Below, piece by piece: positions 6,925 to 16,346 of a DNA stretch of 40,388 nt; the first letter of the stretch is position 1; each line of letters starts with the position of its first letter. Source of the DNA: Terriglobia bacterium (GTDB lineage: Bacteria > Acidobacteriota > Terriglobia > Acidiferrales > UBA7541); the NCBI GenBank assembly GCA_020072765.1, contig JAIQGD010000029.1, positions 1 to 40,388 of the forward strand, read 5' to 3'. Below the pieces are notes generated by a model that saw nothing but the letters and a program-made list of their open reading frames with translations, made no database searches and was not told the origin of the DNA. The position numbers and the translations under genes were made by a program.

Positions 6925-7038
6925 TCGCGTCAGGGCACGCCTTCAGCGCGCCGTTTGCGTCCCGGACAGTAGTCGGGACCGTGCCGCCGACTGCGCAAAA
7001 TCCACGCGGCTTTAGCCGCTGAGGGACGTAAACTCCAG
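6925..7038. repeat. Dispersed intergenic repeat, copy A (inside dcw operon, murE-murF gap)
   Basis: This stretch shares modules with four other intergenic sites in the window (15558, 17480, 27432, 34041). One module reads CGCCGTTTGCGTCCCGGACAG and continues into a hairpin, stem TCCCG..AC / GT.CGGGA with one bulged G. A second module is the near-palindrome GCGGCTTTAGCCGC followed by TGAGGGACGTAAA. It sits between two essential genes of a co-transcribed operon, so any transcript would carry the hairpins. I see no open frame or transposase that explains it. Confidence 0.8.
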
Positions 7039-8611: not shown

Positions 8612-10579
8612 TCAATTGCCGTTCCCTCGGGCCGCTACGTGCACCAGTTCCGCGGAACGGCCGAAACGCACGGTGACGTGACTGCCCCGCAGGACTTGCG
8701 CGCCCGCCGCGGGAAATTGTTCCACCGCGACTCCGCTGCCCAGCAGCGAGGGCACGAGCCCCAGCGGCGAACATGCTTCGGTCACGCTGCGGACGCTCTG
8801 TCCCGCGAGGCTGGGCACGGCTACGGCTCCGGGATCGCCGAAGGCCACCGTGCGCCCCCTAGCGCCCTGCGGCGGTGTCTTCGCCACGGCCGCCGCGAAA
8901 TGCTCCTTGGCCGCATCCGCCCGGTGGTCCGCGACATCCGGTTCCGGGTGCGGCGCGGCGCGATGATTTTTGGCCGTCTGCGTATCCGATCGCGCCGGCA
9001 CATCGTGCGGCGTATCGAGATACGCCAGCACCTGCTCGGCGACGCGCTTGAACACCGGCCCGCCCACTTCGCCGCCATGATGCGGGCCCACCGGCGAATC
9101 GAGCACCACCAGAATGGTGACCACGGGATTATTCACGGGCGCAAACCCCACGAACGACGCCACGTACTGAGATGCGGAATAGCGGCCCGTCGCCGGATCA
9201 ATCTTCTGCGCCGTGCCGGACTTGCCCGCGGCCGTGTACCCCTCAAGTTGCGCCGGCTTGCCCGTGCCTTCCAGCACCACCGCTTCCATCATTTCGCGCA
9301 CCTGGGCCGCCGTGCGCGCGTCGGTCACCTGCCGCGGCTCCGCTCCCGGAGCGAATCCGGGCGCGGCGCCGCGAATCTCGCGCACGATGCGCGGGCGATA
9401 CAGCGTTCCGCCATTGGCCACCGCCGAAATCGCGGAAATGATCTGCACCGGCGTGACGCTCACTTCCTGCCCCATGGCCAGCGAGCCGATCGAATTCGCC
9501 GACCAGTTCTCCAGCGGGCGCAGCAAACCCCGATTTTCGCCGGGCAACTCGATGCCCGTGGGCTGGCCGATTCCGAAGGCGCGAATCGTGTCGTAGAAGC
9601 GCGGCGCGCCCAGACGCAGCGCCAGCTTGATGGCGCCCACGTCGCTGGAATTCTCTAGAATCCCGCGCACGCTCAGCACCCCGAACGAATGCCAGTCGTG
9701 AATCACCCGCCCGCCCACCAGAATCGACCCCATCTGGCAGTCGACCAAGTCATTGGGAGTGGCCACCCCGTGTTCGATCGCCCCCGTGACCGTCAGCACC
9801 TTGAACGTCGAGCCCGGCTCGTAGGCCGCCACCACCGCGCGGTCCATGCGCGCCTCGTCCGACGACGCGCCCGGCGTATTGGGATCAAACGTCGGCGCAC
9901 TGGCCACGGCCAGGAGTTCGCCCGAGTTGGGGTCCTGCACCACGACCACGCCGTCCTTGGCGTGCGTTTGCGCGATGGCCCGCGCCAGTTCTTTTTCGGC
10001 GATGTACTGGATCGTTTCGTCCAGCGTCAGCGCGACGCTCGCCCCGGGACCGCCCGCCGATCCCCGCCGGTCGTACCAGCGGCGGCGTCCGTCGGCCATC
10101 ACCAGGATGCGGCCGGGCTGCCCGCGGATCTGCTTGTCCAGCGAATACTCGATGCCGCCGATCCCCTTTTCATCCACGTCGACGTAACCGAGCACGGCGG
10201 CGGCCAGTTCGCGCTGCGGATAGACGCGCCGGTTCTCCTTCTGAAAGAAGACGCCGCGCAGATTCATGTCCGTGATCCGCCCGACCGTTTCGGGAGACAG
10301 CTTGCGCGCCAGGCGCACCGGCGTGCGCGCGCCGCGAATCTTGGTTTCAAGGTCGTCCGCCGGCAGATCCAGCACGTGCGGGTGGCCCTGGAACGGGCTT
10401 CCCAGCTTGCGCAGGGTGACCGCCTGTTCTTCAGTGTAGAGGCCTGCCTGGACGAGCGCGGCGTAGATGGCAGGCGCCTTGTGCCCCGCGGAGAAAAAGA
10501 TCCTGTCCCTGCCCTGCCAATCAGGGGCTCGCGGATCGTATCGCACCTCATCGAGGAAAAGAACCGCCGCGATGTCCAT
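8612..10579 (-). CDS. ftsI: Division transpeptidase FtsI/PBP with PASTA domain; N-terminus replaced by transketolase fragment
   Basis: From about residue 74 onward this is a class B penicillin-binding protein that cross-links septal peptidoglycan in the periplasm. The active-site serine lies in GSTFK (S257, K260), the second motif is S311-S-D313 (usually SxN), and the third is KSGT at K453. A PASTA domain follows near the C-terminus (VAVPSLAGQSVRSV). Residues 1-73 are not PBP sequence: they match the thiamine-binding N-terminal domain of transketolase. The expected cytoplasmic tail, membrane helix and RGxxxDRNG region, roughly 100 to 130 residues, are absent. As written the protein has no membrane anchor and could not reach the periplasm. 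The gene is either broken or mis-assembled; position after ftsL supports ftsI identity. Confidence 0.85.
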   Translation of the reverse strand: MDIAAVLFLDEVRYDPRAPDWQGRDRIFFSAGHKAPAIYAALVQAGLYTEEQAVTLRKLGSPFQGHPHVLDLPADDLETKIRGARTPVRLARKLSPETVGRITDMNLRGVFFQKENRRVYPQRELAAAVLGYVDVDEKGIGGIEYSLDKQIRGQPGRILVMADGRRRWYDRRGSAGGPGASVALTLDETIQYIAEKELARAIAQTHAKDGVVVVQDPNSGELLAVASAPTFDPNTPGASSDEARMDRAVVAAYEPGSTFKVLTVTGAIEHGVATPNDLVDCQMGSILVGGRVIHDWHSFGVLSVRGILENSSDVGAIKLALRLGAPRFYDTIRAFGIGQPTGIELPGENRGLLRPLENWSANSIGSLAMGQEVSVTPVQIISAISAVANGGTLYRPRIVREIRGAAPGFAPGAEPRQVTDARTAAQVREMMEAVVLEGTGKPAQLEGYTAAGKSGTAQKIDPATGRYSASQYVASFVGFAPVNNPVVTILVVLDSPVGPHHGGEVGGPVFKRVAEQVLAYLDTPHDVPARSDTQTAKNHRAAPHPEPDVADHRADAAKEHFAAAVAKTPPQGARGRTVAFGDPGAVAVPSLAGQSVRSVTEACSPLGLVPSLLGSGVAVEQFPAAGAQVLRGSHVTVRFGRSAELVHVAARGNGN

Positions 10580-10603
10580 GACGGAGAGCGTCCCTCCCGG
10601 ATG
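10361..10603 (-). pseudogene. Transketolase N-terminal fragment fused in frame to ftsI
   Basis: Reading the minus strand from 10603, the frame gives HPGGTLSVMDIAAVLFL, then RYDPRAPDW, GRDRIFFSAGHKAPAIYAAL and TLRKLGSPFQGHPHVLDLP. These are the hallmark blocks of the transketolase A-subunit N-terminus, including the conserved GHPGG-type and SxGHxxPxxY segments. The match starts right after an in-frame TAG at 10604-10606 and ends about 10361, where FtsI sequence takes over with no frame change. Only about 81 codons of a much longer domain are present, so it cannot be a working enzyme. Transketolase has no known place in a dcw cluster. Confidence 0.82.
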
Positions 10604-10684
10604 CTATCCTGTCGGAAAACTGCTCGCACGGCGGCTGCGACGCGGCCGCCGGAAAATGGATGTGGAGACCGGCCGCCCGGTCAT
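10604..10684 (-). other. 26-codon stub, possible remnant of the true FtsI start
   Basis: An ATG at 10682-10684, 12 bases after the ftsL stop, opens a short frame beginning MTGRPVSTSIFRRPRRSRR and ending at TAG 10604-10606. It is in the same frame as the transketolase/FtsI reading frame that follows. A short, arginine-rich cytoplasmic tail is what one expects just before the membrane helix of FtsI. I infer that this is the original ftsI start and that the intervening part was replaced. The stub is short, so this is not certain. Confidence 0.45.
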
Positions 10685-10696
10685 GCCCGGCTCACG

Positions 10697-11086
10697 TCAG
10701 GGCCGGGGCGCTGGCATCACCGCACGCGCCTGCGCCAGCACGGCTTCGCTCGGTCCCTCGGCCGGAGCCACCTGCCCCGGCACCGGCACCGTCAAACCCA
10801 GTTGCCCGCGGGCGATGGCGTCCACCCTCATCGGGGAGCGCAGCGTGGCCACTTCCAGCGTCAGCTGCTGGTGCAGCTCGGAGGCCTGCGCGCGCTCGGC
10901 CTGCAGCTGCTCGATGCTGTAGCGCAGCTGGATGCACGCGAAGTGCTGCCAGGCGTAAAACAACAGGCACGCCGCCAGCCCCGATCCGGCGGCCACCCGC
11001 CGCCAGAAATCGTGCAAGCGCGCCGCCGGAGCCGGGCGCACCAGGCGCGAGTTGTCGATCCGCTTGACCGTGTAATATTCCGTCAT
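10697..11086 (-). CDS. ftsL: Cell division protein FtsL-like
   Basis: A small bitopic division protein of 129 residues. It has an N-terminal cytoplasmic part of about 30 residues, one hydrophobic helix (GSGLAACLLFYAWQHFACIQL) and a periplasmic coiled-coil-like stretch (YSIEQLQAERAQASELHQQL), followed by a proline- and alanine-rich tail. The architecture and the position between rsmH and ftsI identify FtsL better than sequence does, since this family is poorly conserved. FtsL acts with FtsB and FtsQ to activate FtsW-FtsI. The ATG at 11084-11086 overlaps the rsmH stop by four bases. Confidence 0.85.
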   Translation of the reverse strand: MTEYYTVKRIDNSRLVRPAPAARLHDFWRRVAAGSGLAACLLFYAWQHFACIQLRYSIEQLQAERAQASELHQQLTLEVATLRSPMRVDAIARGQLGLTVPVPGQVAPAEGPSEAVLAQARAVMPAPRP

Positions 11087-11994
11087 CGCGATCTTCCCGC
11101 CGGACGTTGCGCGGTGAGCGCCACCTTCTCCGCCACGCGCATCTTCGCGCTGCGCGCCCGCGGATTGGCTTGAATCTCTTCCTCGCTGGGCACCAGCACC
11201 TTCCGCGTCAGCACGCGGAACATCGCGTCGCGCTCCAGCTGCTGAAACGCGTGCTTCACCAAACGGTCTTCCAGCGACTGGTAACTCAGCACCACCCAGC
11301 GCCCTCCCAAATTCAAAGTGACAGGGGTCCGCGAAAGAAACTGCTCGAGTTCCTCCTCTTCTCGATTCACCGCTTTCCGCAGCGCCAGAAACGTTTTTGT
11401 CGCGGGATGCAGTTTCTGCCTTCCCCTTGCTCTGCGGGCCCCTGCCACAACCGTTGCCAGGTGCTCGGTATCGCGAATGGGCCGCGACCGGACAATCGCC
11501 CTGGCGATTCTGCGTGAATCCCTTTCCTCGGCCTGGTGATAGAGGAGGTCGGCCAGCTCTTTCTCCGACCATTGGTTCACAATTTCGTCCGCCGTGAGCG
11601 GCGTGTCGGGGTTCATGCGCATGTCGAGCGGTCCCGCCCAGCGGAACGAAAATCCGCGCTCAGGGCTGTCCAGCTCGAGGCTTGATACGCCCAGATCGGC
11701 GAGCACTCCATCCAGCAGGGGCAGCTTCAGCTCCTGTGCCACTTCGCCGATTTTCGAGAAGTCCGTGTGCACCAGAGTCACCTTGTCCTCGTACGGCTTC
11801 AGCCGCTCCCGCGCGATTTCCAGCGCCTGCGGATCGCGGTCCAGCACCACCAGCCGCCCCGTCGTCAGCCGCCGCGCGATTTCCACGGCGTGCCCGCCGG
11901 CTCCCGCCGTCGCGTCCAGGTAGGTCCCCTCGGGCCGGATGTGAAGCCACTCCAGCACCTCGGACACCAGAACGGGCGTGTGCGGCACGCTCAC
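11083..11994 (-). CDS. rsmH: 16S rRNA (cytosine(1402)-N4)-methyltransferase RsmH
   Basis: RsmH (MraW) methylates C1402 of 16S rRNA using S-adenosylmethionine. The 303-residue protein begins with SVPHTPVLVSEVLEWL and the SAM-binding loop DATAGAGGHAVEIA. ADLGVSSLELDSPERGFSF and PLDMRMNP follow, and it ends with the family's SYQSLEDRLVKHAF region. Length and gene order (mraZ-rsmH-ftsL) are canonical. It lies 3 bases downstream of mraZ. Confidence 0.97.
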   Translation of the reverse strand: MSVPHTPVLVSEVLEWLHIRPEGTYLDATAGAGGHAVEIARRLTTGRLVVLDRDPQALEIARERLKPYEDKVTLVHTDFSKIGEVAQELKLPLLDGVLADLGVSSLELDSPERGFSFRWAGPLDMRMNPDTPLTADEIVNQWSEKELADLLYHQAEERDSRRIARAIVRSRPIRDTEHLATVVAGARRARGRQKLHPATKTFLALRKAVNREEEELEQFLSRTPVTLNLGGRWVVLSYQSLEDRLVKHAFQQLERDAMFRVLTRKVLVPSEEEIQANPRARSAKMRVAEKVALTAQRPAGRSR

Positions 11995-12579: not shown

Positions 12580-12761
12580 GCGGAATGTTGCAAAAGTGAG
12601 AAAGATTCTGCGGAGACGCCCTCGAGGCATCCCGCCAGCCCGGGGCGGGGCGCCGGCAGCGAAAAACACAATTCCTAGTGGGCTTCCCGCGCGCCCTTCC
12701 CGACGGCTAGTGGTTTAGGCCCGCCCGCGCGTGGTTTTGTTTTGAAAGAGTCAACAACCGG
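12580..12761. other. Non-coding stretch between ZIP gene and dcw promoter
   Basis: After the ZIP gene ends (minus strand) there are about 180 bases before the dcw promoter. They are GC-rich with no open frame that resembles a protein. I see no clear hairpin followed by a T-run, so how transcription from the ZIP/YchF side stops here is not evident. Confidence 0.4.
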
Positions 12762-13535
12762 CTAGACGTGGAAGAAGGCCTTGAGAAGGAACAGAACGGC
12801 GACGCCGAAGAAAACCAGCACGGCCATGCCCACGCCCGGCTCGCGGTTCACTTCGGGAATCAGATCGGACGCGGCCACGTACAGCGTCACCCCGGCCGAC
12901 AGCGGCAGCGCATCGCCCACCGCGCTCCGCAGCACGAACATCAGCCCCACGCCGCCCAGCGTGGCCCCGCCCAGGATCACCGACGAAAAAAACGCCGCTC
13001 GCCGGCTCTGCCCGCTGGCCAGCATCAGCGACGCCACCGTGAACCCCTCGGGAATTTTGTGCAGGAAAATCGCCACGAAGATCACGCCGCCCAGCCACGC
13101 CGAGACCAGCAGGCCCGAGGCAATGGCCACGCCGTCGAAAAACGTGTGGATCACCAGGCCCAGCAGCGCGGCGTAACTGGCATGCGCCGCCGACACCTCA
13201 GCGTGATGCGTCTCTTCCCCGAAATGAAAATGCGGCGCCACGGTATGCTCGAAAAAATGCACCAGGAAGTAGCCGGCGAGAACGAACCCGAACACGGTAT
13301 TCGTGTTGTTGTAGAAGTACGAGGAGGCGTCGCTGCGCAGCCGCAGCGATTCGGGAATCATTTCCAGCAGCGCCGTGGCCAGCATGAATCCGGAGCCCAG
13401 CGCGATGAAGTATTTCAAATAGTGCCGCGACCACTGTCGCCGCACGATCAGCAGCCCGCCCGTGACGTTGGCCCCCGCCGCCGTCAGCCCCAGCAGCAGC
13501 GCCAGCAGGATCCGCGTTGGATCGGCAAGGTGCAT
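12762..13535 (-). CDS. ZIP-family metal transporter
   Basis: A polytopic inner-membrane protein of 257 residues that should import zinc or another divalent metal. About eight hydrophobic segments are visible. The metal-binding helices of the ZIP family are recognisable: HTFFDGVAIA in the fourth segment and HKIPEGFTVA in the fifth. A histidine-bearing loop (HFHFGEETHH) sits before them, as is common in ZIP proteins. The start is ATG 13533-13535; a GTG one codon earlier is equally possible and lies 3 bases from the ychF-like stop. The pair ychF-like/ZIP is probably co-transcribed. Confidence 0.9.
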   Translation of the reverse strand: MHLADPTRILLALLLGLTAAGANVTGGLLIVRRQWSRHYLKYFIALGSGFMLATALLEMIPESLRLRSDASSYFYNNTNTVFGFVLAGYFLVHFFEHTVAPHFHFGEETHHAEVSAAHASYAALLGLVIHTFFDGVAIASGLLVSAWLGGVIFVAIFLHKIPEGFTVASLMLASGQSRRAAFFSSVILGGATLGGVGLMFVLRSAVGDALPLSAGVTLYVAASDLIPEVNREPGVGMAVLVFFGVAVLFLLKAFFHV

Positions 13536-14740: not shown

Positions 14741-15469
14741 ATGAGCGAAAACACCATCCCGCCATTCGATCACCGGGCCGCGGTGCAGCATCTCGCCAAG
14801 GCCGACCGCCGCCTGGGGCGGCTCATCGAGACATTGTCCGCGCGGGCCGTGGAATTCCGGCTGGAGATCGAAGAGGCGCAGACTCCGTACGAATCGCTGC
14901 TGGAGGCGATCGTCTACCAGAGCATCTCCGGGAAAGCCGCCGCGAAGATTTTCAGCCGGGTGGCGGCGCTGGGCGCCAACGGGCGCTGCCCCGCGCCCGA
15001 GGAATTGCTCCGCGTGCGCACGCCGACGCTGCGCAAGATCGGGCTGTCGTTCGCCAAGGCCGCCGCCGTGAAGGATCTCGCGCAAAAAACCATCGAAGGC
15101 GTCGTCCCCACCCTCAACGACGCTCAGAAGATGTCCGACCAGCAGCTGGTCGACCGGCTGATTTCGGTCCGCGGCGTCGGCCCGTGGACCGTCGAGATGT
15201 TTTTGATTTTCCGCCTCGGCCGCCCCGACGTGCTCCCCATCCACGACTACGGCGTGCAAAAAGGTTTCGCCATCACCTATCGCCGCAAGGACATCCCCAA
15301 GCCGCGCGAGCTCGCCGCATTCGGCGAACGCTGGCGCCCCTATCGCACCGTCGCCAGCTGGTACATGTGGCGCGCCGTCGAACACGCCGGCCCGCGCAAA
15401 GCCCCGCGCAAAATCACCAAGGCAGCGCGCAGGCGCACCCCCGCGAAAAAGCGCGCGCCGAAGAAATAA
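14741..15469 (+). CDS. DNA-3-methyladenine glycosylase (AlkA-type, HhH-GPD)
   Basis: A base-excision repair glycosylase that removes alkylated bases from DNA. The 242-residue product shows the helix-hairpin-helix/GPD fold: AIVYQSISGKAAAKI near residue 50, the hairpin VRGVGPWTVEMFLIF around residues 143-157, and the catalytic aspartate in LPIHDYGVQ (D169). The C-terminal 30 residues are very rich in lysine, arginine and alanine, a tail that could add DNA affinity. It is transcribed divergently from the YchF-like gene with a 122-base gap. The family is clear; exact lesion preference is not. Confidence 0.9.
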   Translation: MSENTIPPFDHRAAVQHLAKADRRLGRLIETLSARAVEFRLEIEEAQTPYESLLEAIVYQSISGKAAAKIFSRVAALGANGRCPAPEELLRVRTPTLRKIGLSFAKAAAVKDLAQKTIEGVVPTLNDAQKMSDQQLVDRLISVRGVGPWTVEMFLIFRLGRPDVLPIHDYGVQKGFAITYRRKDIPKPRELAAFGERWRPYRTVASWYMWRAVEHAGPRKAPRKITKAARRRTPAKKRAPKK

Positions 15470-15557
15470 AGGATCATCGGTAGAGACGCCGGCCTGCTGA
15501 ATCTTCCTTTGCAGCGGCGGGCCAGCGTCTTCAGAGTGCGTGTGGCAGCCTCAGCTT

Positions 15558-15639
15558 GGCGTCAGGGCACGGCTTTAGCCGTGCCGCAACTGCCAGAAGA
15601 TGGGTGCGGCTTTAGCCGCTGAGGGACGTAAATTGCAGG
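15558..15639. repeat. Dispersed intergenic repeat, copy B
   Basis: It starts GGCGTCAGGGCACGG like copy A, then has the hairpin CACGGCTTTAGCCGTG (7-base arms around TT). A few bases later comes GCGGCTTTAGCCGCTGAGGG followed by ACGTAAATTGCAG. The last 25 bases match copy A with few changes, while the TCCCGGACAG hairpin module is absent, so the family is modular. Confidence 0.75.
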
Positions 15640-15667
15640 TATCGCACAAGCTCTTTCCGCGGGCCAG

Positions 15668-15708
15668 CCACTTCTTCGACTTTCTCTGCGCCTCTGCGGT
15701 GCGCTTCG
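15668..15708. repeat. CTCTGCGCCTCTGCGGTG-type repeat, short copy
   Basis: The string TTTCTCTGCGCCTCTGCGGTG occurs here and, nearly unchanged, at 19020-19046. Both are intergenic. This type of CTCTGCG/CTCTGCGGTG tract recurs in many environmental bacterial genomes (general recollection, not checked). No coding frame is associated. Confidence 0.55.
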
Positions 15709-15718
15709 TTATTCCCGT

Positions 15719-16192
15719 TCAGCGCGCCCCGCCGCGCACGCTGAGAAACAGCGCGGCGAGGCCCACCAGCAGCACGCCGCTCTCGATCCGCACGGAGATG
15801 CGATGCAGCCGGTCGAATTCCACGCGCAGAGGACTCTCGCGCGGCGCCGTCTCCACCGAGATCATCCGCACGCGCAGCGCGTCCATCCGCGGTATAACGA
15901 TCCGCTGCGAAGCCAGCGTCAGCACCAGCATGAGGACCACGCCCAGCGCCGCCGGCTCCGCCAGCGCGCGCACCGACCGCCCGAGCCCCAGCGCGGCCAG
16001 CAGATAAATCACCGCCGCGATGATCCCCAGCCAATGCAGCCCCTTGATCGTGACCCCAACGATCGCGCCGGCCAGATCGGCATTGGGCAGCACCGCAAAC
16101 GCGCCGCGCGTGACCACCGCCGCGAAATACACGATCGCTCCCACCCACGTGCCTAATGCGAACACTTGCAGGAATCGCAGGATGTGGCTCAT
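15719..16192 (-). CDS. DUF4149-like small integral membrane protein
   Basis: A 157-residue protein with four hydrophobic segments: near the N-terminus (FLQVFALGTWVGAIVYFAAV), at about residues 55-70, at about 80-95, and at the C-terminus. The arrangement and the N-terminal GTW/G..YF features fit the DUF4149 (TMEM205-like) family, whose role is unknown. It ends with a short basic tail. It lies close to tRNA-Val and reads away from moxR. I cannot assign a reaction. Confidence 0.7.
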   Translation of the reverse strand: MSHILRFLQVFALGTWVGAIVYFAAVVTRGAFAVLPNADLAGAIVGVTIKGLHWLGIIAAVIYLLAALGLGRSVRALAEPAALGVVLMLVLTLASQRIVIPRMDALRVRMISVETAPRESPLRVEFDRLHRISVRIESGVLLVGLAALFLSVRGGAR

Positions 16193-16270
16193 CGAGGAAA
16201 TCCGCTAGAATGAATTTTGGGCGGGCGTGGAGGGTTGGTTTGCATCGTCGCCAACGAAACCGGCAGTGAA

Positions 16271-16346
16271 TGGTGGGCGATCAAGGACTTGAACCTTGGA
16301 CCTCTCCCGTGTGAGGGGAGCGCTCTAACCACTGAGCTAATCGCCC
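16271..16346 (-). tRNA. tRNA-Val (anticodon CAC)
   Basis: The minus strand folds into a full cloverleaf of 76 bases. The acceptor stem is GGGCGAT paired with ATCGCCC, the D-arm GCTC..GAGC, and the anticodon stem CTCCC/GGGAG around loop CTCACAC with anticodon CAC. The T-arm is CAAGG TTCAAGT CCTTG, followed by discriminator A and an encoded CCA. CAC reads GUG, the valine codon favoured in such a GC-rich genome. Confidence 0.97.

Follow-up and report, generated by a model that had tools for sequence, protein, structure and literature searches.

Introduction

FtsI is described as essential (PMC8998562), and in E. coli it has one transmembrane helix (PMC4038516). The locus described here lies in a window of 40,388 nucleotides, i.e. 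the whole stretch of DNA that was analysed, and its closest counterparts are the FtsI proteins of the same genus. These are PBP3-type class B PBPs with a PASTA domain, with which the locus shares the gene from about residue 97 onward at 63-78% identity, as well as the gene order mraZ-rsmH-ftsL-ftsI-murE. The difference from these orthologues is the absence of residues 1-96, which comprise the cytoplasmic tail, the membrane helix, the region of the RGxIYDRxG motif and the start of the dimerisation domain. In their place, the frame carries a piece of a transketolase. With the ThDP-binding domain of transketolases (PF00456) this piece has about 76 codons in common, from HPGGTLS to FQGHPH, but these cover just about one quarter of it, and there is nothing before the conserved SGH and nothing after the piece.

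Chimeric contigs are documented for metagenome assemblies (PMC7881036; PMC8201837), and in spike-in tests species of low or intermediate coverage were likelier to be found in chimeric contigs with every assembler tested (PMC7881036). The hybrid resembles such contigs in that unrelated sequences are abruptly joined on one contig of one assembly. However, the documented chimeras are simple end-to-end joins, whereas here the foreign piece is flanked on both sides by native, collinear sequence, as in a small sandwich.

Organization of the locus

On the minus strand of the window, the order is mraZ, which was assigned from sequence and position, rsmH (11083-11994), ftsL (10700-11086), a leader (10604-10696), an open frame from 10603 to 8612, and murE. 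The ftsL gene is intact and collinear with the sister loci, and its TIGR02209 score of 39.7 bits lies just below the curated 42.45. The leader is a native, non-coding intergenic stretch that matches the sister leaders through a TAG, the TAG included. The earlier note on this DNA had counted an arginine-rich stub, MTGRPVST...PTG*, as part of ftsI; as the TAG is aligned in the sister genomes, it is native, and the stub is therefore leader DNA and not protein. From 10603, a single open frame of 663 codons follows in which the transketolase segment runs into the FtsI transpeptidase without any frameshift or stop, and both parts are undecayed. That one frame joins such strong matches to both families is far beyond what chance would produce.

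The ftsI part proper begins at about residue 97 and runs to its stop codon (8612-10375, minus strand), is positioned between ftsL and murE in collinearity with the sister genomes G001 and G009, and has an intact frame. It encodes the rest of the PBP dimerisation domain, a transpeptidase domain (PF00905, E 1.2e-72), as expected of an FtsI class B PBP, and a PASTA domain (Pfam). The PBP_dimer profile is matched only from position 65 of 180, and the dimerisation domain is thus incomplete. Judged from the sister locus L008, the host has lost about 298 nt, namely 10 nt of the leader and 96 codons, and 228 nt stand in their place. The sister FtsI L006 starts with MEQRNPRLRWLVVWVLAVAWMAVVVGRLSYLQLF... 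and has a clear hydrophobic helix, after which RGTIYDRKG follows. No such N-terminal membrane helix is found in the chimera, whose best 19-residue hydropathy within the first 130 residues is 0.98, versus 2.1-2.3 in the two sister FtsI proteins tested, and the loss of the membrane anchor that the earlier note had claimed is supported for this assembly.

Comparison with the genus

The window was compared by alignment with the ftsI loci of congeneric sister species, as the earlier note had already suggested. In all other genus genomes with ftsI at this place (17 of 17), the chimera is matched only from its residue 75-77 onward, which is exactly at the join. Those of these genomes that were inspected upstream of the join have an ordinary FtsI N-terminus with hydrophobic helix and RGxIYDRxG motif. 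Two genus genomes are too incomplete to judge: in G012 FtsI is not matched at this place, and in G003 the match is limited to a fragment of 31 residues. The joins are therefore unique to one assembly and absent from its close relatives, as is expected of an assembly or library chimera.

Over the part that could be aligned, approximately its first 30 kb, the window shows collinearity with both G001 and G009, and the transketolase segment is collinear with neither of them. The other gaps in collinearity with these two genomes are mostly short, and among those with sequence on both sides, no other combines a position inside an open frame in both genomes with a complete loss of similarity. About 90 kb of host sequence aligned with G001 contained no further patch of this kind besides the ftsI site, in a partial survey that took 90 of 402 kb, out of 3.78 Mb. 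Within the 152 contigs of the assembly, a search for a second FtsI found only other PBPs, which leaves the inactivated duplicate considered in the earlier note unsupported, and a search for the displaced FtsI N-terminus found only another PBP at 34%.

The transketolase piece

The foreign segment (HPGGTLSV...FQGHPH) occupies 10376-10603 on the minus strand. An 81-residue piece is matched by Pfam Transketolase_N (PF00456) with an E-value of 5e-15 and by the NCBIfam transketolase profile with 3e-20, which bears out its earlier assignment to transketolase. The match covers only positions 24-104 of the 334 positions of Transketolase_N (24-101 when the piece is taken alone), and no other transketolase domain is matched, so that the set of complete ThDP-binding, pyrimidine-binding and C-terminal domains that makes up a transketolase is not present.

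Where could this piece come from? In the 152-contig genome it is present once, within the ftsI frame. An intact transketolase with identical nucleotides elsewhere in the host genome, for which the earlier note had suggested a search, was rejected as source, as no copy was found; the transketolase that the host itself encodes, on contig 5, has 37% identity to the piece, and those of other genus members are 30-37% identical. The best matches found come from MAGs of Planctomycetota and Spirochaetota, with 73% identity over 77 residues. In the sampled part of the host phylum (396 genomes), the best identity is about 62%, and in 399 genomes of the host class the best nucleotide identity over the piece is 69%. 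A near-identical donor sequence was found neither in these class and phylum genomes nor in a scan of genome contigs (best 72%). The tree of the 77-residue transketolase stretch is poorly resolved and was taken as a hint only, and we claim no donor phylum. A compositional sign of foreign origin was rejected, since GC (0.649) and GC3 (0.779) of the piece do not stand apart from those of the neighbouring genes.

Positions of the joins

The 5' join falls between 10604 and 10603, some 10 nt ahead of the usual ftsI start. The window sequence ...TTTTCCGACAGGATAG matches TTTCCGATAGGGTAG of the sister leader, after which L008 reads GCCGGAGTTC and then the ATG of FtsI; as the stub is leader DNA, the join is upstream of the native start codon. 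The transketolase sequence starts at CAT (10603), and as the transketolase homologues compared read SGH at this place, the two sides of the 5' join share at most about 1 nt.

The 3' join is of a different kind. The alignment with G001 begins at 10375 and that with G009 at 10380, and the 20-nt string CCGCACGTGCTGGATCTGCC (10381-10362, minus strand) fits both genes: all of it is identical in the transketolase homologue L074, and 12 nt of it, CGTGCTGGATCT, also occur in the sister ftsI L010. At the protein level, HVLDLP is shared ground, as the sister FtsI L010 reads RVLDLPAEDLE and some proteobacterial transketolases read GHPHVLDLP. HVLDLP thus is not assignable to transketolase alone, and the 3' join has to be given as the zone 10362-10381. 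The earlier note had counted about 81 transketolase codons in frame with FtsI; frame and identity hold, and the sure length is reduced to about 76 codons. Donor and host likely shared up to about 20 nt at this site, and such a string suggests an overlap-driven mis-join. The fact that orientation and frame are right at the 3' join says little in favour of a working fusion, because both agree by chance once in six, and an in-frame join therefore needs no selection.

Origin of the hybrid

It is very likely that the transketolase-ftsI hybrid is an artefact, a chimera into which DNA from the community was drawn during assembly or library preparation; a cause of this kind was also preferred in the earlier note. 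A stretch of about 228 bp from the transketolase gene of another, unsequenced community member would have been spliced in for the 5' end of ftsI, and the 3' join would have been made through the short string common to both genes (up to about 20 nt), an overlap of the kind on which short-k graphs, gap closers or template switching operate. With an overlap of at most about 1 nt, the 5' join is not covered by a plain k-mer collision, which can account for the 3' join alone, and for this side a gap filler or a chimeric read must be assumed. We infer that both joins were made outside the cell, because a single-copy essential gene is without its anchor and carries a foreign piece seen nowhere else, because the frames on both sides are undecayed and the hybrid is unique to one 152-contig assembly, and because one join lies in a likely shared string, which presumably guided it. 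In the living organism, FtsI is most likely an ordinary protein with its membrane anchor in place.

Against an artefact speak the GC and GC3 of the piece, which are like those of its neighbours, and the fact that no donor was found. The host assembly, which from its fragmentation appears to be a MAG, has a completeness of 96.6% and a contamination of 0.2%, and with one patch in the about 90 kb compared it is not obviously error-ridden. Such scores are blind to a patch of 228 bp, and if the hybrid is an artefact, it calls for caution, as a patch of this size makes a false fusion protein of an essential gene.

What alternatives have to be weighed? Homology-facilitated illegitimate recombination leaves one join with a short shared sequence and one without, together with a deletion and foreign filler. 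The two joins agree with this pattern, and the GC of the piece equals that of the host. In such an event, the cell would have exchanged about 298 nt of its own sequence for a foreign stretch of about 228 nt, with a short homologous anchor at the 3' end and blunt joining at the 5' end, and the sequenced lineage, or part of the population, would carry a dead ftsI allele. We nevertheless regard real recombination as unlikely, as ftsI, which is essential wherever this was tested, occurs here in a single copy, with no second FtsI found in the assembly, as the hybrid is absent from every other genus genome, and as the sequence is undecayed, which would not be expected of an old dead allele.

A working chimera could start at the ATG at 10579 within the transketolase piece, from which the frame is open to 8612 and ahead of which a GGGAGGG string lies at a distance of 12 nt, and would then be a fusion of transketolase and FtsI that serves a new role in the cytosol. 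This is very unlikely, as the missing helix near the start means that the transpeptidase is not expected in the periplasm, the piece is a mere fragment of Transketolase_N with the rest of the enzyme absent, and no relative has such a fusion. That the swap of the ftsI 5' end for a foreign transketolase fragment truly exists in the genome of a bacterium that divides although its FtsI is unanchored would be startling, as it would mean septum synthesis without this anchor, and we consider it highly improbable.

Other features of the window

Upstream of mraZ, the window has less than 0.2 kb (12610-12798) where G001 has about 2.6 kb and G009 about 3.5 kb. Within the collinearity gap at 15424-15736 relative to these two genomes, the stretch 15548-15656 is a member of a dispersed repeat family and looks like a REP/MITE-like intergenic repeat. 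There are 26 more partial matches to the gap (77-100% identity, about 27-109 nt) on many host contigs, and one of them lies at 7006-7038 of the window, just upstream of murF, the neighbour of murE. Finally, 81 bases at 16266-16346 are 97.5% identical to G009, with surroundings of about 75-80%, and may possibly represent a candidate tRNA or other RNA gene.
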